A model generated the notes under the pieces. The model was not told the DNA's origin. It made no database searches and worked only from the letters and a program-made list of their open reading frames with translations. A DNA stretch of 64,000 nt, from contig NZ_CP032543.1 of the NCBI RefSeq assembly GCF_003610995.1, positions 3,286,001-3,350,000 on the forward strand. Reading direction: 5' to 3'. Below, piece by piece: positions 21,686 to 61,808 of the stretch. The stretch is from Streptomyces griseus subsp. griseus (GTDB taxonomy: Bacteria > Actinomycetota > Actinomycetes > Streptomycetales > Streptomycetaceae). The stretch's first letter is position 1; every line of letters begins with the position of its first letter. The translations under genes and the position numbers were made by a program.

Positions 21686-24600
21686 CTAGCCGAGCCCGAT
21701 CTCCTGGTCCAGTGCCTCGAACAGTTCGTCGTCGCTGACGGAGCCGAGGTCCTCGTCCGGTACGGCCTCGGTCGTGCCGTAGCCGTGGGTGTCACGCCAG
21801 CGGCGCAGCAGCGCCTCCAGCCGTGAGGTGATCCTGAGCCTGTCCGCCGCGTCGGGGGTCGCGGCGGTGAGGCCCGTGTCGAGTTGGTCGAGCATCCCGA
21901 GCAGGGCCCGGTTCGCGTCGGCCGTGGCGTCGTGGTCGTTCTCGCCGTCCTGGCCGATCTCCCCGTCCAGGAAGTCCGCGACCGCGCGCGAGTCGGGGTG
22001 GTCGAAGACGAGGCTGGCGGGGAGGGCGAGGCCGGTCACCGCGCCCAGCCGCCTGCGCAGTTCGACGGCCGCGAGCGAGTCGAAGCCCAGTTCCCGGAAG
22101 GGCCGGTCGGTGCCCACGGCCTCCGCGGAGGCGTGGCCGAGGAGCCCCGCCACCTGGGAGGTGACGACATCGAGGAGGATGCGGGCCCGCTCGGGAGCCC
22201 CGCGTCCGGCCAGCCTCCGCCGCAGCTCCGCGCCCGAGCCGGGGCCGCGGGCCCCGGTCCGTACCGCCGAGGGCACGAGGGACGCGAGGACGGGCGGCAG
22301 CCGGTCCGCCTGGGACCGCAGGGCGCCCTGGTCGAGATGGAGCGGGTACACCACCGGCTCCGTACCGCGCAGCGCCTCGTCCAGCAGGGCGGCGCCCCGG
22401 TCGGCGGGCAGCGGTGGCAGGCCCAGGGCCGCCAGCTGGTGCCGGGTCGCCTCCGACGTGCCGTCCGCCTCCCAGGGACCGACGGCGAGCGAGGTGGCGG
22501 GCAGTCCGAGGCCGTGGCGATGCCGGGCGAGGGCGTCGAGGAAGGTGTGGGCGGCGGCGGAGGCGGACGCCCCGGCGCCGTGCACGAGCCCGTCCGATCC
22601 GGAGAGCATCACGAACACCAACGGCCCTGTGTCGCGGGTGAGTTCGTGCAGGTGCCAGGCGGCGTCGGCTGCCGGGCGCAGGACCTCCGACAGTCGCTCG
22701 GGGGTCTGGTCGGTGATCGGCGCGTGGGGCCCGGTGGGGGCCGTGTGGATGACCCCGGTCAGCGGCCGGTCGGCGGGGATCTGGGCGAGGAGGGCGGCGA
22801 GCGCGTCCCGGTCGGCCGGGTCGACGGCGCTGAGGGTGACCTCCGCGCCGAGGACGCCGAGCCCGCCGAGCACACCCGGGCCGTCGGTGCCGGCGGGCCC
22901 GTCGGCGTTGTGCCCGTCGCCGTCGGGGGCGTCCGCTGCCGGGGCGGCGCCGGTGACCAGCAGATGGCGTACGCCGTGGACCGTGACCAGGTGCCGGGCG
23001 AGGACCGCGCCCGCCCCGGTCGCACCGCCGGTCACCAGGACCGTCCCACGCGCCAGGTCGGGCGGTGTGCCGTCGCCGGGGACCGCCTTCACGAGCCGGG
23101 GCAGGTACACCGTGCCCGCCCGGACGACGAGGTCGTCGGCTCCGGTGGCGAGCGCCTCGGGCACGGCCCTGGCGGACGCCTCCGTGTCGTCGAGGTCCAG
23201 CAGGACGAACCGGTCGGGGTGCTCGCTCTGCGCGGCCCGCACCAGACCCCGCAGAGCGGCCCGGTGTACGTCGGCCTCAGTGACGGGTGCTCCGGCGGGA
23301 CCGGCAGGACCGGCGAGAGGGGCGGGGCCGGCGGGACCGGCCGGAGGGGCTGTACCGGCGGGACCGGTGGCCTGCCTGGTGACGACGGCCAGCTTCGTCG
23401 CGGTGTCGCCGTCGCCCACGAGCAGCCGCCGCACCCGGCCGAGGGCGTCGGCGAGGTGTTCACGTACCGCCGTGAGGACCTCGGCCGGGCCGTCCGGGAC
23501 CTGCCACAGCAGGAAGTCCACCGGGCCGTCGGGGTCGTCCGGGCCGTCGGGGGCGTAGGCGGGGAAGGGCAGGGCGGGTACGGCGTCGCCGTCCGTGCGG
23601 ACGACCGGGCGCACCGCGCTGTCCGGGGCGGCGGCCGTGTCGTACGCCGTCCACTCCACCCGGTACAGCGCGCCCGCGGGTTCCCCCACCGTCAGCTCGG
23701 CCGTGGTGACCGGGCGGCAGGTGACCTCCTCCACCGTCAGGACGGGGTTGCCGAGGGTGTCGGCGATGTCCAGCGACAGGGTCGCCTCGCCGGTGGCCCT
23801 CGCCCGTATCCGCACCTCGGGGGCGCCGGGGCCGTGGACGGTGACGCCGGTCCAGCGGGCGGAGACCCGCGCGCCGTCCCGGGCACCGGCGAGCAGGTCG
23901 ATCCGGGTGGCGGCGTCCAGCAGCGCGGGATGGACGAGGAAGTCCCCGCCCGCCGTCCCGCCGCCTTCCGACGCCTCGTCCACGGCCACCGTGTCGTCCA
24001 CGGCGGACACGCCGTACCCTGCGGCGACGCCGACCACGGCGGCCTCGGCGAAGAAGGTGTCGCCGAGCCGCCATGCCGAGCGGACGGTGCGGAACGCGGG
24101 GCCGTAGGCGTTGCCGGCGGCGAGCAGCGCCTCGTACACCTCGTCGGGGTCGGCGGGGAGGGCACCGGGCGGTGGCCAGCTCTCCGCGGCGGCCACCGGC
24201 GGCGGTCCGGCCGGGGAGAGGACACCACGGGCGTGGAGCGTCCAGGGCAGTTCGGGACCGTCGGCGGGGCGGGCGTAGACACCGACCGCCCGGCGGTCCT
24301 CGTCGTCGGGTGCGCCGACGGTCACCCGCAGCTCACGGTCCGCGTCGGCGGGCAGCGGCAGCTGGGCCTCCACGGTCAGGGTGTCCAGCCGGGGGCATCC
24401 GGTCTCGGCCCCGGCACGCAGGGCGAGTTCGACGAACGCGCTCGTCGGCAGGGCGACGGTGCCCAGCAGGTCGTGGTCGGCCCACCAGGGCTGATCGGCG
24501 AGGGAGAGCCTGCCGGTGAGGACGGCGGCACCGGTGTCGGGTGAGGTCACGAAGGCGCCCAGCAGCGGGTGGTGGGCGGCGGTGAGCCCCATGGCGGCGG

Positions 24601-27600
24601 GATCGGTGCCGGTGCGGGCGCCGCGCGCCCAGAAGGGCTCACGCCGGAACGCGTACGTCGGCAGATCGATCCGCCGCGCGCCGCTGCCGGCGTAGAACTC
24701 CCGCCAGTCGACCGGGACATGGCGGGTGTGCGCGAGGGTCAGCGCGGTGACGGCCTCGGTGGGCTCTTCACGTTCGCGGCGGGCCAGCGGCAGGAACGCG
24801 GCCTCCGCCGTGTCGGGCAGGCAGGCCGGGCCGAGGGCGGACAGGACGGCGTCCGGGCCGACTTCGAGGTAAGTGGTGACGCCCGCGCCGTGCAGGGTCC
24901 GCATGCCGTCGGCGAACCGGACGGCCTCACGGACGTGCCGCACCCAGTGGCCGGGGTCGGCGAGCTCCTCGGGGGTGACGATCCGGCCGGTCAGGTTCGA
25001 CACGACGGGTACGGCCGGCGCGCTGACGGTGATCTCCGCGGCGACCCGGGCGAACTCCGCCAGCATCGGTTCCATGAGCGGCGAGTGGAAGGCGTGCGAG
25101 ACCCGCAGCCGCTTTGTGGGGCGGCGCAGGGCGGCGAAGTGGTCGGCCACGGCCTGGACGGCGTCGGCGGCACCGGACACGACGACCGCCTCCGGTCCGT
25201 TGACGGCGGCGACGGCCGCCCGGTCCCCGCACTCCGCGAGCAGTGGGAGCACCTCGTCCTCCGCCGCCCGTACGGCGATCATCGCGCCGCCCTCGGGCAG
25301 TGCCTGCATGAGCCGGCCGCGCGCGGCGACCAGCTTCGCGGCGTCCGCGAGGGTGAGGGCCCCCGAGGTGTGGACGGCGGCGATCTCCCCGACGGAGTGC
25401 CCGGCCAGCAGGTCGGGGTGGACGCCCCAGGACTCCAGGAGCCGGAACATCGCCACCTCGAAGGCGAACAGGCCGGCCTGGGTGTACTCGGTGCGGTGGA
25501 GCGCGCGCTCGTCGCCGCTGACGATCGCGCCGAGCGGCCGGTCGAGGTGGGGGTCGAGGGCGGCGAGCGCGGCGTCGTGGGCGGCGGCGAAGGCGGGGAA
25601 GGCCTGGCGCAGGCCGTCGCCCATCCCGACGCGCTGCGCACCCTGCCCGGAGAAGAGGAACGCGGTGAGCCCGGCGGGCGCGGCCGTGCCGCCGACGCTC
25701 GCGGTGAGGCCGGCCAGCTCCCGCAGGGCCCGGGCGCGGTCGGTGACGACGAGCGCGGCCCGGTGGGCCATCGCCGTCCGGGTGGTGGCCAGCGAGAAGC
25801 CGACATCGCGGACGTCGGCCTCCGGCCGCTCCGTGAGGTGCGCGAGGAGCCGCCCGGCCTGACGTGCGAGGCCCTCGGGGTCACGCGCCGACAGCAGCCA
25901 CGGTACGGGGGTGGGGACGGGTACGGGGGACGTCCCGGGACCGCCTTGGGTGCCCTGGGTGCCCTGGGTGCCCTGGGCGTCTTGGCCGTCCTGAACCCCC
26001 TGAACCCCCTGGCCGTCCTGGCCGACGCTCTCCTGGGAGGCGGCGGTCTCCCGGACGGCGAGGGCAGCGGCGGCCGGGATGGCCACCGGAGCGGCGGGCG
26101 CCTCGATGATCACGTGCGCGTTGGTGCCGCTGATGCCGAACGACGAGATCCCGGCCCGGCGCGGGCGTCCGGTCTCCGGCCACTCCTGGGCGGCGGCCAG
26201 CAGGGCGACATCTCCCGCCGTCCAATCCACCTGGGGCGACGGCTCGTCCAGGTGCAGCGACCTCGGCAGGACTCCGTGCCGCATCGCCTCCACCATCTTG
26301 ATCACTCCGGCGACGCCCGCGGCGGCCTGGCTGTGCCCGATGTTGGACTTGACCGAGCCGAGATAGAGCGGGCGGCCCGCCGGACGTTCCTGGCCGTACG
26401 TGGCGAGGACCGCCTGCGCCTCGATCGGGTCGCCCAGGGTGGTGCCGGTGCCATGGGCCTCCACGGCGTCGACGTCGGCGGGGGCCAGCCCCGCGTGGGC
26501 GAGCGCCTGCCGGATGACGCGCTGCTGGGACGGGCCGTTGGGGGCCATGAGCCCGTTGCTCGCGCCGTCCTGGTTGACGGCGCTGCCGCGCAGCACGGCC
26601 AGGACGGGGTGGCCCAGGCGCCGGGCGTCGGAGAGCCGCTCGACGACGAGGACGCCGACGCCCTCGGACCAGGCGGCGCCCTCGGCGGCGGCGGAGAACG
26701 AGCGGCACCGGCCGTCGCGGGAGAGCCCCCGCTGCCGGGAGAACTCGATGAACGTCTCCAGCGTCGACATGACCGTCACCCCGCCGACCAGCGCGGTGGG
26801 GCACTCGCCGGACCGTACGGCCTGGGCGGCCAGGTGCAGGGCGACCAGCGACGACGAGCAGGCGGTGTCCACCGTCAGGGACGGGCCTTCGAGCCCGAGG
26901 GTGTACGACACCCGCCCCGAACCGAGCGAACCTGCCGCGCTGTTGCCCGCGTAGTCGTGGTACATGATCCCGGCGAAGACGCCGGTCCTGGTGCCCTTCA
27001 GGGACGCCGGGTCGATACCGGCCCGCTCCAGTGCCTCCCACGCGACCTCCAGGAGCAGCCGGTGCTGGGGGTCGGTCGTCCGGGCCTCGTTGGGGCTGAT
27101 GCCGAAGAAGCCGGGGTCGAACTCGGCCGCGTCGTGCAGGAATCCACCGTGCCGTACGTAGCACTTGCCGGGCTTCCCGGGCTCGGGGTCGTAACTGCCC
27201 GCGAGGTCCCACCCACGGTCGCGCGGGAACTCCGTGATGGCGTCGACCCCCTCGTCCACGAGCCGCCACAGGTCCTCGGGGGAGCGCACGCCACCGGGAT
27301 AGCGGCAGGCCATCGACACGATGACGACCGGGTCGTCGGTGTCGCCCGCCGGGTCCGTCGCCGCTGCCGCGCCCTCGCCGGGGGCGGTGTCGCGCTCACC
27401 GGCGAGCAGGTCGTCGAGGTGGTCGGCGACGGCGCGGGTGTTGGGGTGGTCGAAGACGAGGGTGGACGGCAGCCGCAGTCCGGTCACGGAGGTGAGCTGG
27501 TTGCGCAGTTCGGTCGCGGTGAGGGAGTCGAAGCCGAGCTCGGTGAAGGCCCGGTCGGGCTCGACGCCGGCGGCGGTGCCGTGCCCGAGCACCACGGCTA

Positions 27601-30600
27601 CCTGGGCGCGGACCAGCTCCAGCAGGGCGCGCGACCGTTCCTTCGGGGCCAGCCCGGCCAGCTCGTCGATCACCGCGGGGGCGCCGGAGGCAGCCGCCGC
27701 GGCGGCGCGCGGCCGGGGCCGCACCAGGCCGGAGAAGAGGGACGGCAGCGTGTCCGGCGCCGCCCGCAGAGCGGCCAGGTCCAGGCGGACGGGCAGCAGG
27801 CAGGGGACGTCGGTGGCGAGGGCGGCGTCGAGGAGGGCCAGGCCCTGTTCCGGGGTGAGCGGTTCGACGCCGGAGCGGCTCATGCGCCGCAGGTCGGTAC
27901 CGGCGAGGGTGCTCGCCATGCCGTCGCCGTCGGCCCACAGCCCCCAGGCGAGGGACCGGGCCGGCAGGCCGAGCGCCGCGCGGTGGGCCGCCAGGGCGTC
28001 CAGGAAGGCGTTGCCCGCCGCGTAGTTGGCCTGGCCGGGGTTGCCGAGGGCGCCCGCGACGGACGAGAAGAGCACGAAGGCGGAGAGGTCCAGGTGGCAG
28101 GTCAGCTCGTGCAGGTTCCATGCGGCGTCGGCCTTCGCCCGCAGCACGGCGGCCAGTCGTCCGGGGGTCAGCGAGCCGATCGTGGCGTCGTCCAGCACCC
28201 CCGCGCAGTGCACGACGGCGCTGGGCCGGTGCCGCTCCACGAGGGCGGCGGCCGCCTCGCGGTCGGCCAGGTCGCAGGCGGCGAGGGTCACCTCGGCGCC
28301 CAGAGCCGCCAACTCCTCGCGCAGCGCCCCGGCACCGGGTGCGTCGGCGCCGCGCCGGCCGGCCAGGACGAGGTGCCGGACGCCGTGCCGGGTGACGAGA
28401 TGGCGGGCCACCAGAGCGCCGAGCGTGCCGGTCCCGCCGGTGAGGAGCACGGTGCCGTCGACGGGCCCGTACGGGGAAGAGGACGCGGCGACCGGTTCGC
28501 CGTGGCCCTCGCCGTCCGCCGGGGGCGCGGCCGGGACGCGGGTCAGCCGAGGGGCCCACAGAGCGCCGTTCCGTACGGCGGTCTCCGCCTCGCCCGAGGC
28601 GACGAGCGCGACCACGTCGACCCCCGCTCCCGCGCCCACCCCCGTAACGGTGTCGGTCAGGAGGATCCGCCCCGGGTTCTCCGCCTGGGCGGCCCGGACC
28701 AGCCCTCGTACCGCGGCCCCCGCCAGATCGGTGACGTCCTCGCCGGGCAGGGCGACCGCGCCGTGGGTGACGACGAGCAGCCGGGACGCGGCGAACCGCT
28801 CGTCGGCCAGCCACTCCTGGAGCACCCCGAGGGCCTCGGCCGTCGCGGTCCGCGCACCGGCCGCCGCATCGGCGGACGATGTGGGGCTGTGCCACACCAG
28901 AACGGCCGACTCCCGGGCCGCTTCGGTCCCTTCGCGGTCGTGCCAGGCCACCACGGGGCCGGTCCAGGACGCCTGGCCGACCGGCGCGGGCACCCAGGTG
29001 ACGGAGTACAGCGCACCCCGGGGGGCCTCCTCGGTCCACCGCTCCACGGCGACCGGCCGGGAGACGAGGGAGGCGACCGAGAACACCGGCCGGCCCGTCA
29101 CGTCCGCGCCGGTGACGGCGATGCTGTCGGTGCCGGACGGCACGATCCGCACGCGCAGCCGGGTGGCGCCGACGGCGTGGACGCGGACCTGCTGCCAGGC
29201 GAAGGGGAGCAGGGTCCCCCGCGCGTCTCCGGAGGACGCCGTCCCGCCACCGTGCTCGGCGTCGTCCGGCGTCTCGGCCAGAAGGGTGCCGTGCAGGGCC
29301 GCGTCCAGCAGGGCCGGGTGGAGGTCGAAGCGCTCCGCGTCGGCGTGCGCGGACTCCGGGAGCGCCACCTCCGCGTACGTCTCGTCGCCCCGGCGCCAGA
29401 CGGCCGTGAGGCCCCGGAAGGCCGGCCCGTAGTCGTAACCGAGGGCGAACAGCCGGTCGTACGCACCGTCGAGGGCGACGGGGACAGCGCCCTCCGGCGG
29501 CCAGGCCGCCGTGCCGGCCGGGGGCTCGGCCGACAGCGGCGCCCCTGGGACGACCACGCCCTCGGCGTGCAGGGTCCAGGGCGTCTCGTCGCCGATGGCC
29601 TCGGGCCGCGCGTACACGGCTACGCTCCGCGCCCCGGCGGCGTCCTCGGTGCCGACCCGGACACGCAGGCGCACCCCGCCGTGCGGGGGGAGCACCAGCG
29701 GTGCGCGCAGGGTGAGCTCATCGAGTACGTCACAGCCGAACTCACCGCCCGCACGCAGCGCCAGGTCGACCAGACCAGCGCCGGGGAAGAGGACGGTCTC
29801 CCCCATCCGGTGGTCGCCGAGCCAGGGTTGGGCCTCTACGGACAGCCGCCCGGTCAGGACGAGCCCACCGCTGTCCGGAAGCGTCACGGACGCGCCGAGC
29901 AGGGGGTGATCAGCCGTGTCGAGACCGAGCGCCTCGGGGTCCGCTCCGGCGCGCTCAGGGAGAAGCCAGTACCGCTGGTGCTGGAAGGCGTACGTGGGCA
30001 GGTCGACCCGCCGGGCGCCGGTGCCGGTGTAGTACGCGGCCCAGTCGACCCGTACGCCACTGACGTGCAGCCGGGCGAGCGCCGACACCGTCGTCGTAAC
30101 CTCCGCACGTCCCTTACGCACCAACGGCACCAACACCGCCGCATCCGAGGTCACCGACTGCTGCGCCATCCCGCTCAGCACACCATCCGGGCCGATCTCC
30201 ACATACGAGAGGACGCCACGCGCTTCGAGATGACTGACGCAGTCCGCGAACCGCACCGCCTCGCGGACGTGCCGCACCCAGTACCCGGCCGTCGCGACCT
30301 CCGAGGACACCTCACCCGTGACACCCGACACCAACGGGACCTTCGGGGCACTGAACGACAGCCCGGAGACGACCTTCTCGAACTCCGCGAGCATCGGCTC
30401 CATCAAAGGCGAATGGAACGCGTGCGAGACCCGCAGACGCGAGGACTTCCGCCCCTGCGCCGTGAATACTTCCGCGATCTTCGCCACCGCATCCTCGACG
30501 CCCGAAACCACCACCGAACGCGGCCCGTTCACCGCAGCGATACTCACCAAATCGGACAACAGCGGCATGACCTCGGCTTCCGTCGCCTCCACCGCCACCA

Positions 30601-32650
30601 TCGCGCCACCCTCAGGCAACGCCTCCATCAACCCACCACGCGCCACGATCAGTTGAGCCGCATCAGAGAGGGAGAACACCCCCGCCACGTGCGCGGCGGC
30701 GATCTCGCCCACCGAGTGCCCGGCCAGGAAGTCCGGCCGCACACCCCAGGACTCCGCCAGCCGGAACAGCGCCACCTCCACCGCGAACAACGCCGGCTGC
30801 GCCATCCCCGTACGATTCAACGCATCTTCGTCCGCACCCCAGATGACCTCCTGCAGCGAGCGACCCAAGTGCACGTCCACCGCAGCGAGCACGGCGTCGA
30901 ACGCCTCCGCGAACACCGGATACGCCTCGTACAGCTCACGGCCCATCCCCAACCGCTGCGCGCCCTGACCCGTGAACAGGAACGCCGTCTCACCGGCCGA
31001 ACGGCCCACACCCCGAACCGCGTTCGCCGCCGAATCGCCCCGGGCCAGCGCCCGCAGGCCCGCCACCAGCTCCGTACGGTCCCCCGCCGTCACCACCGCA
31101 CGATGCTCCAGCACCGCACGCGACACCACCGACGAGAACCCCACATCCAACAACGACAGTTCCGCGCCGTCCTTCTCCACCAGCGCCAACAGCCGCTCGG
31201 CCTGAGCCGACAGCGCGACATCGCTGCGCCCCGACAGCACCACCGGCACCACCACCGGCGGCACCGCGGCCCCCACCGGCACATCAACCTCCGGGGCCTG
31301 CTCCACAATCACGTGCGCGTTCGTCCCACTCAGCCCGAACGACGACACACCCACCCGACGCGGACGCCCACGCTCAGGCCACGCACGCGCCTCCGTCAGC
31401 AGCTCAACCGCACCCGCCTCCCAGTCGACGTGAGGTGAACGCGTCCCCGCGTGCAGCGTCTTCGGCATCACACCGTGCCGGATCGCCTCCACCGCCTTGA
31501 TCACACCGCCCACACCTGCGGCGGCCTGCGTATGCGCCAGATTCGACTTCAGCGACCCCAGCCACACCGGATCATCCTCCGGACGACCCTGCCCATACGT
31601 CGCCAACACCGCCTGCGCCTCGATCGGATCACCCAGACGCGTCCCCGTACCGTGTGCCTCCACCATGTCGACATCCGTGGCGGTCAGTCCGGCGCTCTCC
31701 AACGCGGCCCGGATGACCCGCTGTTGCGACGGTCCGTTCGGTGCCGTCAGGCTGCTGGAGGCGCCGTCCTGGTTGACCGCGCTGCCCCGGACGATCGCGA
31801 GGACCGGGTGGCCGTTCTTCCGGGCGTCCGACAGACGCTCCACCAGCAGGACACCGACCCCCTCCGAGCAGCCCGTACCATCCGCCTCCGCCGCGAAGGA
31901 CTTGCACCGGCCGTCCGCCGCCATCCCCCGCTGATGACTGAAGTAGAGGAACATGTCCGGCTCCGTCATCACCGTCACACCGCCCACCAGCGCCAGCGAG
32001 CACTCGTCCGACCGGAGTGCCTGGCCGGCGAGGTGCAGGGCGACCAGCGACGAGGAGCAGGCGGTGTCGACCGTCAGGGACGGGCCTTCGAGGCCGAGGG
32101 TGTAGGACACCCGGCCCGAGACGAGGCTGCCGCCCGTGGTGGCCGCGGCCTCCGTGCCCAGGCCGTAGTCGTGGTACATCAGGCCGGCGAAGACGCCCGT
32201 ACGGCTGCCACGCAACGACAACGGGTCGATACCCGCCCGCTCCACCGCCTCCCACGACACCTCAAGAAACAACCGCTGCTGAGGATCCATCCCCAACGCC
32301 TCACGCGGCGAGATACCGAACACCTCAGCATCAAAATCACCCGCGTCGTACAGAAACCCACCCTCACGCGTCACCGAACGATCAGGACGCCCACCCACCG
32401 GGTCATACAACCCCTCGACATCCCACCCACGATCCACCGGAAACCCCGACACACCATCCCGACCCCCAGCAACCAACTCCCACAAACCCTCAGCCGACCG
32501 CACCCCACCCGGATAACGACACGCCATCCCCACGATCGCCAACGGCTCGTCGCCCGCCCTGCGTTCCGCTGCGGCGAGCCTTTTGCGCAGCTCCCGCAGA
32601 TCGGTGGTGGCTCGGCGTAGATATTCGAGAAGCTTTTCCTCGTTGCTCAC
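21686..32650 (-). CDS. PKS-C: two-module type I PKS, second module with inactive KR (beta-keto)
   Basis: 3654 residues. Module 1: KS 32550-31300, AT 30990-29960 (HAFH, malonyl), DH near 29810, KR 28450-27950 with LDD (B-type), ACP near 27540. Module 2: KS 27340-26110, AT 25665-24640 (HAFH), DH near 24490 (HxxxGxxxxP kept), KR-like region 23050-22450, ACP near 22090. In the module 2 KR the catalytic Tyr is Ser (codon 22561-22559), the following Asn is His (22549-22547) and the SS motif is SGS, so reduction is not expected and the DH has no substrate. Predicted output: alkene, then beta-ketone. The C-terminus has an ITSRLEALL helix and an [16 protein letters not shown] docking tail. Start chosen at GTG 32650 ([11 protein letters not shown]), 8 bp after AAAGG; the GTG at 32659 overlaps that site. 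It is transcribed divergently from the starter-unit island. Confidence 0.95.
25943..26023. repeat. 9-bp tandem repeats in the KS-AT linker of PKS-C module 2
   Basis: Short direct repeats (plus strand tgccctggg and ctgaacccc) encode a Gly-Thr-Gln/Gly-Val-Gln repeat between KS and AT. The reading frame is kept. It looks like a replication-slippage expansion in a non-catalytic linker. Confidence 0.8.
32188..32548. repeat. Perfect 361-bp KS N-terminal repeat (copy in PKS-C)
   Basis: I could find no mismatch between this stretch and 44951-45311 in PKS-B. It encodes the first 120 or so residues of the KS, right after the docking helix, and its codon use (many GTG, GGT, GTT) differs from the flanking KS sequence. 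Confidence 0.93.
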
Positions 32651-33074
32651 CGAGCACACCTTTCTGAAGTCGCGATGTCACAGCGGGCCGTGGGTCCCGG
32701 AACAGCCGGGGAGGGCCGAGCTCCGAAAACCCGGAAGAAAGACCCGGACAGCTGGGAAAACTACGGCTGTCGCGCCTTGTCTGCCCACCCCTGAGTCGGC
32801 CGGGGGACCCCGCAAAACCGGCTCGTCCCCACCCCAGCCCACCCCAGCCCCGGGGCCGCCACGGACCGGGGCCGGGGGCGGCCCGGACCCAGGCACCTCA
32901 CCGGTCAACGGCTTTGACCTGGGCGTACGTTCACGGGCCGGGCGGAGGCGCGTCGCTTCGGCGTGCCTTAGGGGGCCGCCACCCCAGGCGATAGGGGTAC
33001 TGGCCGAGGGCGTTGTCCACTAGCGTCGGCGGCCGGAAAAGGACAGCGGCGTACGCATCGAAACCGGAGTCATC
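32651..33074. promoter_or_regulatory. Divergent promoter region between PKS-C and the starter-unit ACP
   Basis: 424 bp without a gene. It must hold the promoters for PKS-C (minus) and the ACP/ligase island (plus). It contains AGGGGT-type motifs: cacccct at 32786-32792 (AGGGGTG on the minus strand), ttaggggg at 32968-32975 followed by an accccagg arm, and ataggggtac at 32991-33000. The same motif occurs before PKS-A (61970-62022). Candidate -10 boxes are weak (TAGTTT on the minus strand near 32760; TAGCGT on plus near 33021) with no good -35, which would fit activator-dependent promoters. The middle, 32800-32930, is low-complexity C/G-rich. Confidence 0.55.
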
Positions 33075-33311
33075 ATGTGGGATGAGCAGTTCGAGGTTCT
33101 TCTGCGGAAGCAGCTCTCTTTTCTGCCCCCGGACGAAGAGATCCAGGGCGGCATGGAACTGCGCGATTACGGCCTGGATTCACTCGGCACGATCGAGTTG
33201 CTGTCCGGTCTGGAAACCGCCTACGACATACGTTTCCGGGATGAGGCACTGACGCTGGAGACGTTCCGGACGCCGGACGTCCTCTGGAAGACCGTGCAGA
33301 GCCTTCGCTGA
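33075..33311 (+). CDS. Discrete acyl carrier protein for the amino-acid starter (VinL-type)
   Basis: 78-residue stand-alone ACP. The 4'-phosphopantetheine site is Ser36 in YGLDSLGTIELL, and the length matches a single carrier domain with no fused partner. ATG at 33075 follows GGAG at 5 bp. In vicenistatin-type macrolactam pathways such an ACP (VinL) carries the 3-methylaspartate-derived beta-amino acyl group while it is decarboxylated and capped with an amino acid, before transfer to the PKS loading ACP. The nearby adenylating ligase and glutamate mutase genes make this role likely. It is acidic, as expected for partner binding. A role as a general amino-acyl carrier for a different side pathway cannot be excluded. 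Confidence 0.88.
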   Translation: MWDEQFEVLLRKQLSFLPPDEEIQGGMELRDYGLDSLGTIELLSGLETAYDIRFRDEALTLETFRTPDVLWKTVQSLR

Positions 33312-33369
33312 AGCCGGCGGCACGAGGGCGGGCTCAGGGGCAGGGACGGGACGGGGGACGGGGACGGCG

Positions 33370-36104: not shown

Positions 36105-36131
36105 GGGAGCACCTCCCTCTTCGAAGAGTAC

Positions 36132-51400: not shown

Positions 51401-54400
51401 CGCTCCCGTACGGTACGGCGGGCCGGGCCTCGGGTGCGGCCGCGCAGCAGGGCGGGCAGTTCGTCGTGGGCGCGGTCGCGGGCGGCGAGGGCGGCGGCGT
51501 CCACGGCGAGCGGGACGACCAGCGGACCTCCGGTGCCGAGCGCCGCGTCGAAGAGGGCCAGCGCCCGGTCGGCGGGCAGCGCGGGCAGGCCGAGGCGCCG
51601 CATCCGGTCCAGGTCGGCCCCGGTCAGGTCACCGCCGAGTCCGGTGCTGACCTCCCACATGCCGTACGCCAGCGAGGTGGCGGGCAGTCCCGCAGCGGCC
51701 CGGTGGACGGCGAGCGCGTCGAGGAAAACGTTGGCCGCAGCGTAGTCGGCCTGTCCGGCGGCGAGGACGAGGCCGCCCGCCGACGAGAAGAGGACGAACG
51801 CGGTGAGGTCATGGTCCCGGGTGAGGTCGTGGAGCAGCCAGGCGCCGTCCACCTTGGGGCGCAGGACGGCGTCGAACCGCTCGGGCGCCAGGCTCTCGAT
51901 CAGGCCGCCGTCGGCGGTGGCGGCGGCGTGCACGACACCGCGCAGCGGACGGCCGGGATCGATGGCGGCGAGGACGGCGGCGAGCCGGTCCCGGTCGGCG
52001 ATGTCGCACGCGGCGACCTCGACCCGGGCGCCCAGCGCGGTCAGCTCCTCGACGAGCGCGTCGGCGCCCGGGGTCGCGGCGCCGCGCCGGCCGAGCAGCA
52101 GCAGGTGGCGCACGCCGTGCCCGGTGACGAGGCGGCGGGCGACGAGGGCGCCGAGGCCGCTGGTGCCGCCGGTGATCAGGACGGTGCCGGTGGTGTCCCA
52201 CGGGGCGGGGAGCGGCTCGGCCGGTTGGACCGCAGGCGCCAGCCGGGGTATCCACACCTCCCCGGCGCGCACGGCGGCCTCGGGCTCCCCGGAGGTGAGC
52301 GCGGCCAGGACGTCGGCGTCACCGGGGGCAGGGGCGGGGCTGTCCGTGGCGAGGTCGACCAAGACGAACCGGCCGGGGTGCTCGGCCTGCGCCGCCCGCA
52401 CCAGGCCCCACACGGGCGCCTGGGCCAGGTCGATGACCTCGCCGGGCAGCACGGACACGGCCCGCCGGGTCACCACGGCCAGCCTCCGCCCGTCCGAGGC
52501 GGGGTCGGCGAGGAACGCCTGGACCTCGCCGAGCACGTGATGGGTCACGGCGCGCACCGCGTCGGGCACGTCGGTGCCGTCGGGCGCGGCCGGGCAGTGC
52601 AGGATCACGGGGCCGCCGGGCTCGTCCGCCGCGTCGGGCGCGGGGACGGCACGCTGCCAGGCGATGCGGTGCAGGGTGCCGGACGTCCCGGAGGCAGCGG
52701 CGGCGATCTGCTCGGCGGAGACCGGCCGGGAGACCAGCGACTCGACGGTGGCGACCGGGGTGCCGCTGTCGTCGGCGACCATGATGGCCGACACCTCATC
52801 GCCCTTGACCCGCTGGATGTGCACCCGCAGCGTCGCCGTACCGGCCGCATGGAGGGTCACGCCGTTCCAGGAGAACGGCAGCAGGGTCGGTGCGTCGGGC
52901 GCGGGGTCCGTGAGCAGGTCGGCGTGCATGGCGGCGTCCAGCAGCGCGGGGTGCAGGCCGAAGGAGGCCGCCTCCGTCCGCGCCGGTTCGGCGAGCGCCA
53001 CCTCCGCGTACACATCGGTGCCGCGCCGCCAGGCCGCCCGCAGTCCCTGGAACGCGGGCCCGTAGGCGTACCCCCGCTCGCGCAGCCGCTCGTAGGCGCC
53101 GCTCACGTCGAGGGGCGTCGCACCGGGCGGCGGCCACCGGGTGAGGTCGAAGGCGGGGGCGGCGGGTTCCGTGGTGAGGGTGCCGTGGGCGTGCCGGGTC
53201 CAGGGCCCGTCCGGGTCGGTGCCGCCGCGCGAGTGGATGCTCACCGAGCGGGCGCCGGACGCGTCGGCGCCGCCGACGGAGACCCGCAGGGCGAGCCCGC
53301 CCCGCTCGGGCACGGTCAGGGGCGCCTCCAGGAGGAGTTCCTCCACGCGGCCGCAGCCCACCCGGTCACCGGCGCGTACGGCCAGCTCCACGAAGCCGGT
53401 CCCGGGCAGCAGGACGCCGCCGAGCACACCGTGGTCGGCCAGCCAGGGCTGGGTGTCCACGGAGAGCCGTCCGGTCAGGACGACGCCGCCGGTCTCGGGG
53501 GCTTCGACGGCCGCGCTCAGCAGCGCGTGGCCCACCGGTTCGAGGCCCACGGAGTCGAGACCACCGCCGACACCGCTGCCCCCGTCCAGCCAGTACCGCT
53601 GGTGCTGGAAGGCGTACGTGGGCAGTTCGGTGCCCAGCTCGGTGAAGCGTGCGGGGACCCCGAGGAAGGCGGACCAGTCGACCGGGACGCCGCGCGTGTG
53701 GAGCCGGCCGAGCGCCGCCACCAGCTCGCGGAGCTCTGGGCGTTCGCGGCGCAGCGCCGGGACGAAGGCGGCATCGGAGGAGTCGGTGACGGACTCGGCA
53801 CCCATCCCGCTCAGCACACCGTCCGGACCGATCTCCAGGTACGAGAGGACACCGCGTGCTTCGAGATGGCTGACGCAGTCCGCGAACCGGACCGCCTCGC
53901 GGACATGCCGTACCCAGTACCCGGCCGTCGCCACGTCCGACGACACCTCGCCCATGACACCCGACACCAACGGAATCATCGGGGCACTGAACGACAGCCC
54001 CGAGACGACCTTCTCGAACTCCGCGAGCATCGGCTCCATCAACGGCGAATGGAACGCGTGCGACACCCTCAGACGCGACGACTTCCGCCCCAGCGCGGTA
54101 AACGCGTCCGCAACCTTCACGACAGCGTCCTCAGCACCCGAAACCACCACCGAACGCGGCCCGTTCACCGCAGCGATACTCACCAAATCGGACAACAGCG
54201 GTACGACCTCCGCCTCCGTCGCCTCCACCGCCACCATCGCGCCACCCTCAGGCAACGCCTCCATCAACCCACCACGCGCCACCACCAGTCGAGCCGCATC
54301 CGCAAGCGAGAGCACCCCCGCCACATGAGCAGCGGCGATCTCCCCCACCGAGTGCCCCGCCAAGAAGTCCGGCCGCACACCCCACGACTCCACCAACCGG

Positions 54401-57400
54401 AACAGCGCCACCTCCACCGCGAACAACGCCGGCTGCGCCACCCCCGTACGATTCAACGCCCCCTCATCCACACCCCAGATGACCTCCCGCAACGAACGAC
54501 CCAAGTGCACATCCACCGCAGCGAGCACGGCGTCAAACGCCTCCGCGAACACCGGATACGCCTCGTACAACTCACGGCCCATCCCCAACCGCTGCGCACC
54601 CTGCCCCGTGAACAGGAACGCCGTCTTGCCCTCCCGGACCTCGTCCACCACCGCGCCCCGCCCGAGCGCCAACGCGTCCAAGGCGGCGGCCAGTTCGTCC
54701 CGGTCGGCGCCCAGGGCTACGGCCCGGTGGTCGAGTCCGGCGCGGGCCGTTGCCAGGGCGTGGCCCGCGGCGGCGAGGCGGTCGTCGGTGAGGGTGTCCA
54801 GGTGGGCGCGGAGCCGTTCGGCCTGGGCGCGCAGCGCCAGCGGGGTCCTGGCGGAGAGCGGCCAGGCCAGCACCGGCGGTGCGGCAGCCGGAGATTCCTG
54901 CGGGCCGCCGTCCTCGGTGGCGGCGTGGTCGCGGGCGGGCGGCTCCTCGATGATGACGTGGGCGTTGGTGCCGCTGATGCCGAACGACGACACCGCGGCG
55001 CGGCGGGGCCGGTCCGCGGCGGGCCACTCCGCGGGCTCGGTCAGCAACTCGACGGCGCCGGAGTCCCAGTCGACCTGCGGGGAGGGCTCGTCCGCGTGCA
55101 GCGTCCGGGGCAGGACGCCGTGCCGTATCGCCTCGACCATCTTGATGACACCGGCGACTCCGGCGGCAGCCTGGCTGTGGCCGATGTTGGACTTGACGGA
55201 GCCCAGCCGCAGCGGCCGGTCCGCCGGGCGGTCTTGGCCGTACGTGGCCAGCAGCGCCTGCGCCTCGATCGGGTCGCCGAGACGGGTCCCCGTACCGTGC
55301 CCCTCCACCGCGTCCACATCACCCGGCACGAGGCCCGCGCTCTCCAGCGCCCGGCGGATCACCCGCTGCTGCGAAGGACCGTTCGGCGCCGTCAGACCGT
55401 TCGACGCACCGTCGGAGTTGACGGCGGAACCGCGTACGACGCCGAGGATCCGGTGGCCGTTGCGTTCGGCGTCGGAGAGCCGCTCCAGGAGCAGCATGCC
55501 GACGCCCTCGCTCCAGCCGGTGCCGTCGGCGGCGGCGCCGAACGACTTGCACCGGCCGTCGGCCGCGAGGCCGCGCTGCCGGCTCATGTCCACGAAGGTG
55601 TCCGGGGTCGACATGACGGTGACGCCGCCCGCGAGGGCCAGGGTGCAGTCGCCCCGGCGCAGCGCCTGGGCCGCCCAGTGCAGGGCGACCAGGGACGACG
55701 AGCAGGCGGTGTCGACGGTGACGGCGGGGCCCTCGACGCCGAGCGCGTAGGCGACCCGGCCCGACACCACGCTGGCGAGGCTGCCGTTGCCGTGGTAGCC
55801 CGCGATGTGCTCGGGCAGCGGGCCCAGGCGCAGGCCCCAGTCGTGGTACATCACCCCGGCGAAGACGCCGGTGTCGCTGCCGCGCAGGGAGTGCGGGTCG
55901 AGACCGGCGCGTTCGAACGTCTCCCAGGACACTTCGAGCAGGAGCCGCTGCTGCGGGTCCATGGCCTGGGCCTCGCGCGGGCTGATGCCGAAGAACTCGG
56001 CGTCGAAACCGGCCGCCTGGTAGAGGAATCCACCCTGGTCGGAGAGGGTCTTCCCGGGCTTGCCCGGCTCGGGGTCGTAGAGGTCGGAGTCCCAGCCCCG
56101 GTCGGTGGGGAACCCGGAGACGGCGTCCCGGCCCTCCTCCACCAGGTGCCACAGGTCCTCGGGCGAGGCGACGCCGCCAGGGTAGCGGCAGGCCATGGCG
56201 ACGATCGCGATGGGCTCGTCGTCGGCGACGACGGTGGTGGCCGGGGTACGGGTCCGGTCGGCCTCCTCGGTGGTGGTGCCGAGTCGTCCCGCGAGGTGGT
56301 CGGCGAGCGCGCCGGGCGTGGGGTGGTCGAAGACGAGGGTGGCGGTCAGCGGGATGCCGGTGGCGGCGCTGAGCCGGTTGCGCAGTTCGACGGCGGCGAG
56401 CGAGTCGAAGCCCATCTCGTTGAAGGCGCGGGCCGGGGCGATGCGTTCGGCACCCTCGTGCCCGAGTACGGCGGCGACCTGGCCGCGTACCAGGTCGAGC
56501 AGGGCCTCCCCGCGTTCGGCGCGGGTCAGCCCCGCGAGCCTGCGGGCGAGGGAGTGCGCCACCTCGACGCCGTCGGCCCCGTCGGTGCCGACGGCGCGCC
56601 GGGCCGGCCTGACCAGGCCGCGCAGCAGCGCCGGAAGGCCGCCGCCGGAGCGGGCCTGGAGGGAGCGCAGGTCGAAGCGTACGGGGACGACCGCCGATGT
56701 GCCGGGCGTGGTCAGGACCCGGTCGAGGAGGGCGAGGTTCTCCGGGGCGGTCAGCGGCTGGAGGCCCAGGCGTTCGATGCGGCGCAGCGCCGCCTCGTCC
56801 AGCCCGCCGCCCATGCCGCCGGTGCCGGTCCACAGGCCCCAGGCGAGGGAGGTGGCGGGCAGTCCGGCGGCGGTGCGGTGGGCGGCGAGGGCGTCGAGGA
56901 AGACGTTGGCGGCCGCGTAGTTGCCCTGGCCCGCGCCGTCGAGGAGGGTCGCCGTCGAGGAGAAGAGGACGAACGCCGACAGGTCGCTGTCGCGGGTCAG
57001 CTCGTGCAGGTGCCAGGCGCCGTCCGCCTTGGGCCGCAGGACGGTGTCCAGCCGGGTGTCGTCGAGGGAGGCGACGAGCCCGTCGTCCAGGACACCGGCC
57101 GCGTGCACCACGGCGGTCAGCGGCAGCGCGGCGGGGATCGCGGCGAGCGCGGCGGCCAGCGCCGTACGGTCGGCGACGTCGCATGCGGCTACGGTCACCT
57201 CGGCGCCCAGGGCGGTCAGTTCGTCGCGCAGCGCGGCGGCTCCGGGGGCCTCCAGACCCCGGCGGCCCGTGAGCAGCAGGCCGCGTACGCCGTGCACGGT
57301 CACCAGGTGGCGGGCGAGGGCGGCGCCGACGCCGCCGGTGCCACCGGTGATCAGGACGGTGCCGTCGGGGCGCCACGGGGCCCGGTCCCGGTCCGGGGTC

Positions 57401-60400
57401 TGCTCGGCCCTGGCGAGCCGGGGGACGAGGAATTGGCCGTTACGCAGGGCGAGTTCGGGTTCGGTGGTGGCGGCGGCGATCTTCAGCGCCTCGGCGGGGT
57501 CGAGCGAGCCGTCGGTGTCGAGGAGGGTGAACCGGCCGGGGTTCTCCGCCTGCGCCGAGCGCACCAGGCCCCAGACCGGCGCCTGGGCGAGGTCGATCGC
57601 GTCGCCGGGCGCGGTGGTGACCGCGCCGCTCGTCAGGACGACGAGCCGCCCGGTCGCGGAGCGTTCGTCGTCGGTCCAGGACCGTACGGCCGTGAGGGTG
57701 TCCGACAGGACGGCACGGACGGCGCCGGGCACATCGTCGCCGGACGGCCGGGCGCACCGGTGAAGTTCGGCGGCCGGGGCCCCTCGGCAGGGGTGGCCCC
57801 GGGCGCGGGCAGGGGCGTCCAGGTGACGTGGAAGAGGGCGTCGGGGCGGGTGGCGCCGAGTCGGGCCGCGTCGACCGGGCGGACCAGGAACGCGTCGACG
57901 GAGGCGACGGGCGCCCCGGTGGGGTCGGCCAGTTCCAGCGCCACCCGCTCGGCACCGGTGGCGGTGATCCGTACCCGCAGGGTGTCGGCGCCGGTCGCGT
58001 GCACGGTGACGCCGTTCCAGGCGAACGGCAGCCGGATCCGCTCGTCCCGGGGCCCCTCGGTGGCGAAGTCGGTGGCGTGCAGCACGGCGTCCAGCAGCGC
58101 CGGGTGGAGGCCGAACCCCGCGGGCGACACGCCCCGGTCGTCGGAGGAGGGCAGCGCGACCTCGGCGAGGACGGCGCCGTCGGGGGTGCGCCACACGGCG
58201 CGCAGGCCGTGGAAGGCGGGGCCGTAGGCGTAGCCCTGAGCGGTCAGGTCCTCGTAGAGGCCGGAGATGTCGACGGGTTCGGCGTCGCGCGGCGGCCAGG
58301 GACCGGTGGCGAACGCGGCCGGTCCGCCGTCCGGTGTCCGGGGGGCGAGCCGACCGGTGGCGTGCCGGGTCCAGGGGGCGTCGGCGGGGGCGTCCTCGTC
58401 CCGCGCGTAGCAGGCGACGGCCCGGTGGCCGGCCTGGTCGGGGGCCTCGGCCACGATCTGGAGGGCGACGCCCCCGGTGGCGGGCAGCACCAGCGGCGCC
58501 TCCATGAGGAGTTCGTCGATCCGCTCGCAGCCGGTCTGCTCCCCGGCGTACGCCGCGAGGTCGACGAAGGCGGTGCCCGGGAGCAGCACATGGCCCGCGA
58601 TGGTGTGGTCGGCGAGCCAGGGGTGGGAGCGCAGGGAGATCCGGCCGGTGAGGACGACGGCTTCCGAGTCGGCGAGGCCGACGACCGCGCCGAGCAGCGG
58701 GTGGGCGGCGTCGACCTGGCCGAAGGCGGTGGCGTCGGCGGCGGACCCCGGGGCGCTCAGCCAGTACCGCTCGCGCTGGAAGGCGTAGGTGGGCAGGTCG
58801 ACGCGGTGGGCGTCGTAGGCGGCGAAGAAGGCGCGCCAGTCGGGTGCGGTGCCGCGTGTGTACGCCACCGCCAGCGCGGACAGCAGCTGGCGCGGCTCGT
58901 CGTGGCCCCGGCGCAGGGCGGACACGAACGCGGTGCCGGTGTCGGGGGCGCAGTCGCGGCCCATGGCGCTGAGGACGGGGTCCGGGCCGAGTTCGAGGAA
59001 GGTGTCGACGCCCTGCGCGAGGAGCCAGTCCATCCCGTCGCGGAACCGTACGGCCTCGCGGACGTGGCGCACCCAGTGTTCGGGGGAGGACAGTTCGTCG
59101 GTGGTGGCGAGCCGTCCGGTCAGGTGGGAGACCACGGGGATGGTCGGCGGTGCGTAGCTGAGGATCTCGGCGACCTGCCGGAACTCCGCGAGCATCGGCT
59201 CCATCAGCGGCGAGTGGAAGGCGTGCGAGACCCGCAGCCGCTTCGTGCGGTGTCCGGCGTCGGCCAGCAGCGCGGCGATCGCGGTGACCGTCTCCTCGTC
59301 GCCGGAGAGGACGAGGGAGGTGGGGCCGTTGACGGCGGCGATGCCCGCCCGGTCGCGGCGGTCGGCGAGGAGGGGCGCCACCGTCTCCTCGGAGGCGTCG
59401 ACGGCGATCATGGCGCCGCCCTCGGGCAGCGCGTCCATCAGCCGGCCACGGGCGGCGACCAGGGTGGCCGCGTCGTCCAGGGAGAGGACCCCTGCGACGT
59501 GTGCGGCGGTCAGCTCGCCGATGGAGTGGCCCGCCACGTAGTCGGGGCGTACGCCCCACGCCTCCAGCAGCCGGAACAGCGCGGTCTCGACGGCGAACAG
59601 GGCGGCCTGCGCGTACCCGGTGCGGTCCAGCAGAGCGGCCAGGGGCGAGCCCTCGTCCGCGAACAGGACGTCCCTCAGCGACCGGTCGAGTTGGAGGTCG
59701 AGGTAGCCGATGGCGTCGTCGAGGGCCTTGGCGAAGACGGGGTGGGTCTCGTACAGGCGGCGGCCCATGGCGAGGCGCTGGCTGCCCTGCCCGGAGAACA
59801 GGAACGCGAGCCTGCCGCCGGTGACGGCACCCGTGTGCACGCCGGGGGTGTCCTGCCCCTCCGCGAGCGCGCGCAGCCCGGCCAGGACGCTGCCGTGGTC
59901 ATCGGCGAGCACCACGGCGCGGTGGCCGAGTGCGGTGCGGGTGGTGGCCAGCGAGTGGCCGAGGTCGGCGGGGCGGAGTGCGGGGTCGCCCTCGACCCGG
60001 TCGAGGAGGCGGCGCGCCTGGGCGCGCAGGGCGGTGGCGTTCCTGGCCGAGAGCGTCAGCGGTACGGGGGTCCCGGCGTCGGCGGGCGCCCGGTCGTGGC
60101 CGGCGGGAGGCTGCCCGGCGGCCGGGGGTTCCTCGACGATGAGGTGGGCGTTGGTGCCGCTGACCCCGAAGGAGGAGACACCGGCACGCCGCGGCCGGTC
60201 GCCGGGGGTCCAGTCGACGGGTCCCGTCAGCAGCCGGACGTCGCCCGCCGACCAGTCGACGGCGGGGGTGGCGGCGTCGACGTGCAGGGTCGCCGGGAGC
60301 CTGCCGTGGCGCATCGCCATGATCATCTTGATGAGTCCGGCGGAGCCCGCCGCGGCCTGGGTGTGCCCGATGTTGGACTTCACCGAGCCGAGCCACACCG

Positions 60401-61808
60401 GGCTGTCCTCCGGCCGGTCCTGCCCGTAGGTGGCCAGCAGGGCCTGCGCCTCGATCGGGTCGCCGAGGGTGGTGCCGGTGCCGTGCGCCTCCACGGCGTC
60501 CACGTCGGTGGCGGCGAGCCCGGCGTCGGCGAGGGCCTGGCGGATGACCTGCCGCTGGGCCCGGCCGCTGGGCGCGGTCAGTCCGTTGGAGGCGCCGTCC
60601 TGGTTGATGGCGGTGCCGCGGAGGACGGCGAGGACGGGGTGGCCGTTGGCCTGCGCGTCGGAGAGCCGCTCCAGGACGAAGACGCCGACGCCCTCGGCGA
60701 AGGCGGTGCCGTCGGCGGCGGCGGCGAACGCCTTCACCGTGCCGTCGGGGGCCAGACCGCGCTGCCTGCTGAACGCGGTGAACGTTCCGGGGCTGCCCAT
60801 GACGGCGACGCCCCCGGCCAGGGCGAGGCCGCACTCACCGCTGCGCAGGGACCGTACGGCCAGGTGCAGCCCGACCAGGGAGCCGGAGCAGGCGGTGTCC
60901 ACGGTCAGCGCGGGGCCTTCGAGGCCGAGGGTGTAGGCGACGCGGCCGGAGACGACGCTGGGCGCGTTGCCGCTGAGGAGGTAGCCGTCGAGGCCGTCGG
61001 GCGCCTCGTGCAGCCGCATCGCGTACTCCTGCGGCTCGGCGGCGACGAACACGCCCGTACCGCTGCCGCGCAGGGTGGCCGCGTCGATGCCCGCCCGCTC
61101 CACCGCCTCCCACACGGCCTCCAGGACCAGCCGCTGCTGCGGGTCCATCGCCAGGGCCTCGCGGGGGCTGATGCCGAAGAAGTCCGCGTCGAAGTCGGCG
61201 GCGTCGGGCAGGAATCCGCCGTGCCGCGCATAGGTCGTACCGGGGGTCGCCGGGTCCTCGTCGAAGAGCCGGTCCAGGTCCCAGCCCCGGTCGTCGGGGA
61301 ACGTGTCACGGATGTGGGTGCCGTCGTCGACCAGCCGCCACAGGTCCTCCGGCGAGGCGACCCCGCCGGGGTAGCGGCAGCCGATGCCGACGACGGCGAT
61401 CGGGTCGTCCGAGTGGCGGCCGGGGCGCGGTGCGGGCCCGTCCCGCTCGGGCAGCTCCAGGGCCTCGGTGCGCAGGTGGGCGGCGAGTTCGGCGGGCGAG
61501 GGGTGGTCGAAGGCGACGGTCGGCGGCAGCGAGAGGCCGGTCGCGGCGGAGAGCCGGGTGTGCAGTTCCACCAGGGCCACCGAGTCGAGGCCCAGTTCGC
61601 GGAAGGGCCGCCCGGTCTCCAAGGCGGTGGTCCCGGGGCGGGTCGCGCGCAGCACCTCCAGGGTGTGCTCCCGCACCAGGCCGAGCAGCACATGCGTCTG
61701 CTCGGTGGTGGGCAGCGCCGACAGTTCCCGCACGAGCGCCTCGTGCGGGCCGGTGCCGCCGGCCGGCGCGCCGTCGGGGCCGGAGACGAAGTTTCCCGAC
61801 TCAGTCAT
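45421..61808 (-). CDS. PKS-A: initiating type I PKS, loading ACP plus three KS-AT-DH-KR-ACP modules, one-base frameshift
   Basis: 5462 residues when the frameshift at 57776-57783 is bridged. The N-terminus is a lone loading ACP ([12 protein letters not shown], Ser76), with no KSQ, AT or CoL domain, as in vicenistatin-type macrolactam synthases that receive an amino-acyl starter in trans. Module 1: KS 61410-60140 (active site CSGS instead of CSSS), AT 59820-58760, DH near 58610, KR 57365-56840 (LDD), ACP near 56400. Module 2: KS 56220-54940, AT 54625-53590, DH near 53430, KR near 52190-51650 (ADG), ACP near 51230. Module 3: KS 51035-49760, AT 49420-48390, DH near 48230 (DxxxS in the second motif), KR 46820-46290 (MDN), ACP near 45850. 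All three ATs have HAFH, so malonyl. Predicted output: three conjugated alkenes. The C-terminus carries an [11 protein letters not shown] docking tail. ATG 61808 follows GGAG at 5 bp. Confidence 0.94.
48819..49434. repeat. AT-core block shared with PKS-D (copy in PKS-A module 3)
   Basis: Partner of 19291-19906, at an offset of exactly 29,528 bp with no indels. It indicates recombination or conversion between distant PKS genes of the cluster. Confidence 0.88.
57776..57783 (-). other. Frameshift site in PKS-A (GGGGCCCC run)
   Basis: Loading ACP, KS1, AT1 and DH1 read in a frame that stops at 57633. KR1 onwards reads in another frame whose coding sense begins here: [20 protein letters not shown] aligns with module 2 ([20 protein letters not shown]). 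Adding one base to this GGGGCCCC run joins the two frames exactly. A missing base from sequencing is likeliest. If real, it would cut the protein within module 1, before its KR. Confidence 0.83.

Follow-up and report, generated by a model that had tools for sequence, protein, structure and literature searches.

A divergent Streptomyces griseus gene cluster, very probably of the bombyxamycin/piceamycin/weddellamycin type, with a transposase relative among its starter genes

Which macrolactam pathway is encoded by the large polyketide synthase (PKS) locus of Streptomyces griseus subsp. griseus, and is it a new one? The locus lies in a stretch of 64,000 nucleotides (G000:C1:3286001-3350000, contig NZ_CP032543.1; the window, whose coordinates are used throughout) of a genome of 7,238,194 bases in a single contig. 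The original prediction, made from the letters of the window, described a likely new or little-known polyene macrolactam pathway with sceliphrolactam as the nearest match. We found that the cluster is very probably a divergent copy of the bombyxamycin/piceamycin/weddellamycin-type pathway, and that one gene among its starter genes (33370-34404) is a relative of IS630 transposases, which, as judged from its sequence, has probably been domesticated as a DNA-binding protein.

The window was extended by 60 kb to the left and by 46 kb to the right, and 170 kb were read overall. The PKS modules were mapped with tblastn, using domain queries from the intact module 4 and a thioesterase (TE) query from the last PKS; the gene calls came from a script-made caller, not a validated annotation. 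Proteins of the window and flanks were scanned with Pfam, and relatives of solved structure were taken from the best PDB chain matches. Relatives of the glutamate mutase E chain (MutE) were sought in 392 genomes of the genus with a cut-off of E 1e-30, and named homologues were taken from the best 80 of 196. Published clusters are compared through excerpts of the papers cited.

The assembly line and its starter genes

Based on the tblastn map, six PKS genes, each frame-split gene being counted once, carry a loading acyl carrier protein (ACP), 11 modules and a TE. They are encoded on the minus strand, in the order of synthesis loading ACP, modules 1-3, module 4, modules 5-6, module 7, modules 8-9 and modules 10-11 with the TE. 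Ketosynthase, acyltransferase, dehydratase and ketoreductase domains are abbreviated KS, AT, DH and KR, and open reading frames ORF.

57633..61814, minus strand: PKS with loading ACP, KS1-AT1-DH1 and part of KR1, frame lost near 57.77 kb (ORF calls, tblastn, Pfam)
45421..57732, minus strand: PKS with KR-ACP of module 1 and modules 2-3, in the other frame (ORF calls, tblastn)
40092..45413, minus strand: PKS with module 4, KS-AT-DH-KR-ACP (tblastn)
21686..32650, minus strand: PKS with modules 5-6; KR6 lacks the catalytic residues Tyr and Asn, so a ketone is predicted (tblastn, motifs)
16646..21637, minus strand: PKS with module 7, no DH, presumed A-type KR, hydroxyl predicted (tblastn, motifs)
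6713..16492, minus strand: PKS with module 8, whose AT has YASH (methylmalonyl), and module 9 as far as the KR; the frame is lost near 6.85 kb
5481..6890, minus strand: PKS with KR and ACP of module 9, in the other frame (Pfam KR and PP-binding; tblastn)
1..5472, minus strand: PKS with module 10 and the start of module 11, the gene running left of the window to the TE at -5747

The PKS opens with a lone loading ACP at 61476-61703, which is followed by KS-AT-DH-KR. Modules 1-5 and 8-11 were read as KS-AT-DH-KR-ACP, module 6 has a DH with a degenerate KR, and module 7 has no DH. The earlier domain reading agreed with this map in every module that it listed, and its count of ten modules and a partial eleventh within the window was right. 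Extension to the left past base 1 completed module 11 and added the TE at -5118 to -5747, and no further KS was detected by tblastn beyond module 11 in the 170 kb. With 11 modules and a TE, the predicted 26-membered ring therefore stands.

The motif HAFH was found in ten of the 11 ATs and YASH in AT8 alone, which we take to specify malonyl and methylmalonyl units, respectively. The catalytic Tyr and Asn are kept in ten of the 11 KRs as YAA(A/S/G)N, and KR6 reads SAAAH in their place, so that a ketone is predicted from module 6. In KR7 the LDD motif is missing and a Trp is present, which presumably makes it an A-type KR, and since module 7 has no DH a hydroxyl is predicted there. The His and Pro of the DH motif HxxxGxxxxP are kept in all ten DHs, with the Gly displaced in some, and in module 11 the DH and KR motifs are both intact. 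One enoylreductase motif pattern gave no match in the PKS genes.

Starter and tailoring genes are as follows.

62028..63455, minus strand: glutamate mutase E chain (VinI type), starter supply (Pfam Met_asp_mut_E PF06368, E 4.2e-76)
63452..63955, minus strand: glutamate mutase B12-binding subunit (VinH type; Pfam PF02310)
33075..33311, plus strand: stand-alone ACP, VinL-like (PP-binding; best PDB chain 5czd_B)
34503..36104, plus strand: aminoacyl ligase, VinM-like, for the protecting amino acid (AMP-binding; best PDB chain 8k4r_A, E 4e-190)
38858..40063, minus strand: flavin-dependent (FAD) ferredoxin reductase (Pfam Pyr_redox_2 and Reductase_C; syntenic in four relatives)
67047-69417, right flank: adjoining genes for a cytochrome P450 (P450), a ferredoxin and a TIM-barrel isomerase (PF00067, PF13370, PF01261)

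The right flank also holds genes for a decarboxylase, a second ligase, a VinK-type acyltransferase (VinK_C), a type II thioesterase, and TetR and LuxR regulators, and a VinJ-type amidase gene lies to the left of the PKS genes. The nearest PDB chains were 3wvn for the second ligase, 8k4r for the first, 5czd for the acyltransferase and the ACP, and 3wmr for the amidase, which we take to be VinN, VinM, VinK/VinL and VinJ, respectively; for the pyridoxal phosphate (PLP) dependent decarboxylase the nearest solved chain was BtrK. Only one P450 was found among the Pfam-scanned proteins. The vicenistatin-type starter set is thus complete, with the mutase pair, two ligases, ACP, decarboxylase, transferase and amidase. 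Pfam and tblastn bore out the mutase pair, discrete ACP, stand-alone ligase and lone opening ACP on which the beta-amino-acid starter had been proposed. The mutase pair (62028-63955) lies just to the right of the extent given at first, 21686..61808.

Vicenistatin itself has a 20-membered ring; homologues of its mutase pair, two ligases, ACP, decarboxylase, acyltransferase and amidase are present here, and the PKS differs. The starter logic is shared with the vicenistatin pathway (PMC11284099). In the proposed route, glutamate mutase would form 3-methylaspartate, which the VinN-like ligase would load onto the stand-alone ACP and the PLP decarboxylase would convert to 3-aminoisobutyryl-ACP. The VinM-like ligase would then cap the amine, and the VinK-like acyltransferase would pass the capped starter to the loading ACP. 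Eleven modules would build a C27 chain with five alkenes, the C13 ketone, the C11 hydroxyl and an 8-methyl tetraene. The cap would be removed by the VinJ-like amidase and the 26-membered lactam closed by the TE, after which the P450, ferredoxin and isomerase may give a bombyxamycin-, piceamycin- or weddellamycin-like end product.

Priming with 3-aminoisobutyrate and a 26-membered polyene lactam are both supported by these genes. The predicted skeleton has a C1 lactam, an 8-methyl 2,4,6,8-tetraene, an 11-hydroxyl, a 13-ketone, a 14,16,18,20,22-pentaene, a 24-methyl and a C25-N bond in the ring of 26. The predicted lactam would be C27H33NO3, with atoms counted by hand and a calculated [M+H]+ of 420.253.

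Relation to known and related clusters

The weddellamycin (wdl, CP142147) cluster of Streptomyces sp. DSS69 is described with a loading part and 11 modules in six PKS, a YASH motif in AT8, an inactive KR6 and no DH7, and the motifs of AT8, KR6 and DH7 are read there as we read them here (PMC11051340). The module string of the window is identical to it point by point (11 modules, YASH AT8, KR6 without Tyr, no DH7). In the excerpted description the two clusters also have in common the eight starter genes, the P450, ferredoxin and isomerase, LuxR and TetR regulators and the amidase. They differ in the two PKS frame changes of the window, and the comparison is one of descriptions, not of sequence identity. 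In the wdl pathway the product was abolished by deleting any one of the P450, ferredoxin and isomerase genes (PMC11051340).

The skeleton predicted for the window is also that of piceamycin from the bombyxamycin/piceamycin (bom) type pathway (Streptomyces sp. SD53, AmelAP-1), for which nuclear magnetic resonance is reported to give 27 carbons, 8- and 24-methyl groups, a C13 ketone and a C14-C23 pentaene (PMC7889971). With a published module string, a fit to the piceamycin skeleton, and a gene order and string that recur in relatives, the claim of a new or little-known pathway was removed. Instead, the pathway extends by one divergent lineage a class of antibiotics that act on Gram-positive bacteria. 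Macrolactam clusters are reported in 435 genomes (PMC10662134), and this kind is therefore common.

A MutE relative was found in 140 of the 392 genomes, including the window's own, with 76% identity for the best other one; many of these 140 proteins probably belong to other pathways. Among the best 80 of 196 named homologues were those of RKAG290 (74%), Streptomyces sp. A0642 (73%) and S. atratus JCM 3386 (71%). Four relatives (RKAG290, G165, G091 and A0642) were first examined as full regions. RKAG290, G165 and G091 have 11 modules each and the same order of probed genes as the window; the contig of A0642 ends in module 8, and the part present has the same gene order. For all 11 KS domains, the KS of the same module number in a relative shows 86-93% identity, and nine are closer to that KS than to any KS of their own cluster. 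YASH in AT8 and the A-type KR7 were found in all five clusters, window included, KR6 without Tyr in the four where it is readable (window, G165, G091, RKAG290), and module 7 without DH in all four relatives. Out of 23 accessory genes probed, 18 are present in all four relatives, and the amidase in the three with contigs long enough to include it.

The domain types differed in this respect. The AT of eight of the 11 window modules is closer to another module of its own cluster than to its orthologue, compared with five of 11 for KR, two of ten for DH, two of 11 for KS and none of 11 for ACP, so that orthology is followed by most KS and every ACP. The affected AT and KR domains lie in modules 2-5 and 7-11, and in G091 five ATs (modules 4, 5, 9, 10 and 11) each have a same-cluster partner at 99-100%. 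Homogenisation of PKS domains by recombination is a known phenomenon, and we read the likeness within the cluster as such concerted evolution.

Four further regions were examined: G404 (S. roseus ATCC 31245), G402 (Actinobacteria bacterium OV450, in two pieces), G052 and G116. The module strings of G052 and G116 differ from that of the window. S. roseus has the same 11-module string, with KR6 lacking Tyr, no DH7, YASH in AT8 and a TE, and for every one of its 11 KS domains the best match is the window KS of the same number (77-86%); in OV450 the string is as in the window within the parts seen. In both, the gene order differs from that of the window, a ferredoxin reductase match is missing nearby, and the genome has neither an orthologue of 33370-34404 nor, at E 1e-30, an isomerase. 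The module string is thus common to two kinds of cluster, and the window goes with the isomerase-bearing, wdl-like kind.

Several points weigh against the class assignment. The module string by itself is no proof of class, since S. roseus combines it with a different gene order and lacks the isomerase; gene order and the tailoring trio therefore carry part of the assignment. The likeness to bom and wdl is taken from published descriptions, and orthology was measured to RKAG290, A0642, G165 and G091. The lineage of the window is distinct, its MutE reaching at most 76% among the 392 genomes, and its tailoring could differ. The two PKS frame changes may make the cluster non-functional, and for the piceamycin PKS of AmelAP-1 the reported number of modules is 12, not 11 (PMC7889971).

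A sceliphrolactam/streptolactam-type cluster is a highly improbable alternative. The sceliphrolactam (sce) system has in common with the window the starter, the 26-membered ring, the C13 ketone, the C11 hydroxyl, a ferredoxin and a P450. However, the sce PKS of Streptomyces sp. SD85 is described with ten modules, one of them proposed to be iterative, methylmalonyl ATs in modules 3 and 8, two P450s and a 3-oxo group (PMC5785472), whereas the window has 11 modules with AT8 as its only methylmalonyl AT, intact DH and KR motifs in module 11 and the single P450. The product is described with 6- and 18-methyl groups, a 3-oxo/enol and three hydroxyls (PMC7824713); the methylmalonyl AT8 of the window would place its methyl at C8. 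Module count, AT motifs and product structure thus ruled out sceliphrolactam as the closest relative, although it had been named as such. The cluster is a collinear relative of 11 modules, one of which would form the ketone; such a module is said to be missing from the ten-module sceliphrolactam PKS. A further sce-like cluster is also reported with ten modules (PMC12063178).

It is also conceivable, although we regard it as unlikely, that the assembly line is of the same class and the end product is a new analogue formed by other cyclisation or oxidation, as weddellamycin is compared with piceamycin. These two compounds are reported to be made by highly similar clusters (PMC11051340), and the lineage here is distinct, with 73-74% identity for MutE and 66-68% for the isomerase to the four relatives; by their KS domains, these four resemble one another more than they do the window. 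None of the edge genes g47, g48 and g76 is separately matched in the four relatives, and g75 is matched in three of them. On the other side, the remaining 19 accessory genes are present in every relative whose contig extends that far, and identity to the relatives is as high as 86-88% for the P450 and 84-89% for the ferredoxin.

The PKS frame switches, which had gone unmentioned before, lie at about 57.77 kb in module 1 and about 6.85 kb in module 9, each module being spread over two frames. If both are real mutations, the cluster would be dead in this strain and nothing would be made, which we hold to be possible but not the probable case. No homopolymer longer than 5 was found in the 121-151 bases around either site, and a simple homopolymer error is therefore not obvious. 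In RKAG290, G165, G091 and A0642 the gene of module 1 reads through without a break, over about 5450-5480 aa, and module 9 is in a single frame in G165 and G091. However, all other genes of the cluster are single open frames, and RKAG290 shows several frame changes in modules 6-11, including one in the KR of module 9 at a different place, as would be expected of assembly error. A near-identical copy of the module 1 stretch was sought in 60 other genomes, and the best match outside the own genome was 75% over about 400 bases. What the sequence shows is gene content, module string, motifs, synteny and orthology; what the enzymes do, what they make and whether this copy works are inferred from it.

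A transposase relative in the starter operon

Between the stand-alone ACP and the VinM-like ligase, which are called WdlS and WdlQ in the weddellamycin cluster, lies the transposase relative, and a conserved element precedes the ACP.

33370..34404, plus strand: IS630 transposase relative without DDE domain, helix-turn-helix (HTH) conserved, candidate DNA-binding regulator (Pfam HTH_29/HTH_32)
32992..33027, plus strand: invariant promoter element, TAGGGGTA of 21 nt with TAGCGTC (11/11 loci)

The protein has about 50% identity and the whole HTH domain in common with IS630 family transposases of 352-358 aa, for example that of S. cadmiisoli. It differs from them in that Pfam recognised no DDE_3 (PF13358), the VDEK stretch is lost, the next segment is gone or replaced, and the gene is single, with no other copies in this genome at E 1e-8. 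Compared with active relatives, the copies have kept the first 150 residues and lost VDEK and the following segment, and a further position varies (D, N, E); we take the VDEK Asp to be the first catalytic Asp and the variable site to be the second. No pair of terminal inverted repeats of at least 12 bases with both arms outside the ORF was found in 33200-34520.

Among 29 other genomes chosen by MutE, ten have an orthologue (66-72% over 174-222 residues), ten have weaker matches only (29-54%, the highest over short pieces) and nine have none. ACP, orthologue and ligase adjoin in all 11 loci, window included, and face the PKS gene of modules 5-6; of the ten others, only four were read over the whole region. 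A recent insertion was ruled out, as the gene has an unchanged position in all four relatives and, in the wider comparison, in all 11 neighbourhoods. The idea that the gene always accompanies this module string was also rejected, since it is absent from S. roseus and from OV450 as far as seen, the two same-string clusters with another gene order. An isomerase relative was found in nine of the ten other genomes with the orthologue, the exception being the fragmented draft of S. laculatispora, and in none of four tested genomes without it.

A tree was made of 41 rows, namely 37 of the best 38 of 116 database matches (one of fewer than 281 residues was dropped) and four ordinary IS630 rows labelled by us. 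Eighteen rows without DDE_3 form one group (98/99), 17 of which, including the window's, are grouped at 100/99; two other rows without DDE_3 lie outside the main group on long branches. The ratio of nonsynonymous to synonymous differences per site (pN/pS) among the 11 loci had a median of 0.26 for residues 1-150 and 0.62 for the remainder (54 of 55 pairs, one near-identical pair being dropped by the pS filter), where pS is uncorrected and biased by high G+C, so that the comparison alone counts. At the same loci the first 120 residues of the ligase gave 0.26, the ACP 0.19 and the PKS start 0.19. In pairs with the window only, residues 1-150 gave 0.35-0.44, against medians of 0.38 for the ligase and 0.27 for the ACP. 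The window copy and an 81%-identical database copy have 147 of the first 150 residues the same, with indels after them.

Because the DNA-binding half is under selection without the catalytic core, a retained DNA-binding role is the best reading. We lean, with some reserve, towards a history in which an IS630 transposase entered the starter operon in an ancestor of the weddellamycin-type, isomerase-bearing branch. After the loss of its catalytic core it would have been retained for DNA binding, probably to regulate the pathway, and inherited with its DNA-binding half under selection like the neighbouring enzyme. The rival explanation is that the ORF is kept only to couple translation of ACP and ligase. 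Only 9-14 bases separate its start from the ACP gene in the ten relatives, and its end runs 32 bases into the ligase gene; in the window, however, there are gaps of 58 and about 98 bases. Coupling would explain an open frame, but neither the uneven constraint nor the spacing in the window.

As no target site was found for the protein, its role as a regulator is one that we infer. A query derived from the ends of an active relative, using its copies in two genomes, was scanned against five clusters for a binding site of the protein; the best matches were 14-15 of 21, against 14-15 in one mononucleotide shuffle each, a gain of at most 1 base. In the ACP promoter, CTAGCGTC comes near to the query but is better taken for a -10 element than for such a site. 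By title and start of abstract, open-licence full texts gave no precedent on point for IS630 or domesticated transposases in Streptomyces, for transposases linked to the three compounds, or for transposase-derived factors in biosynthetic clusters, the supplements with the wdl gene table, which may list the gene, being excluded; the word transposase does not occur in the main text of PMC11051340. Such a gene is easily dismissed as mobile debris; if its role as a regulator is confirmed, it would clearly exemplify, for bacteria, the recruitment of a transposase into an antibiotic cluster.

The promoter element lies between the divergent modules 5-6 PKS gene and ACP. In all 11 loci TAGGGGTA is exact and TAGCGTC follows at a start-to-start spacing of 29 nt; a looser form occurs once in the window and in none of 100 shuffles. 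A second block on the PKS side, ACCCCTTAGTC, is exact in nine of the 11 loci. These blocks may be activator boxes with a -10 element.

Neighbouring genes

Two further genes lie between the VinM-like ligase and the ferredoxin reductase.

36213..37868, plus strand: major facilitator superfamily exporter (Pfam MFS_1)
37957..38712, minus strand: TetR regulator, probable WdlO counterpart (Pfam TetR_C_1 and TetR_N; position)

In the right flank, sequence starts point to a second type II thioesterase-like gene at about 77908-78714 (g76), and AmelAP-1 is reported with a duplicated type II thioesterase (PMC7889971). Further right, at about 82164-97478, an apparently separate gene set was noted, likewise judged by sequence starts only.

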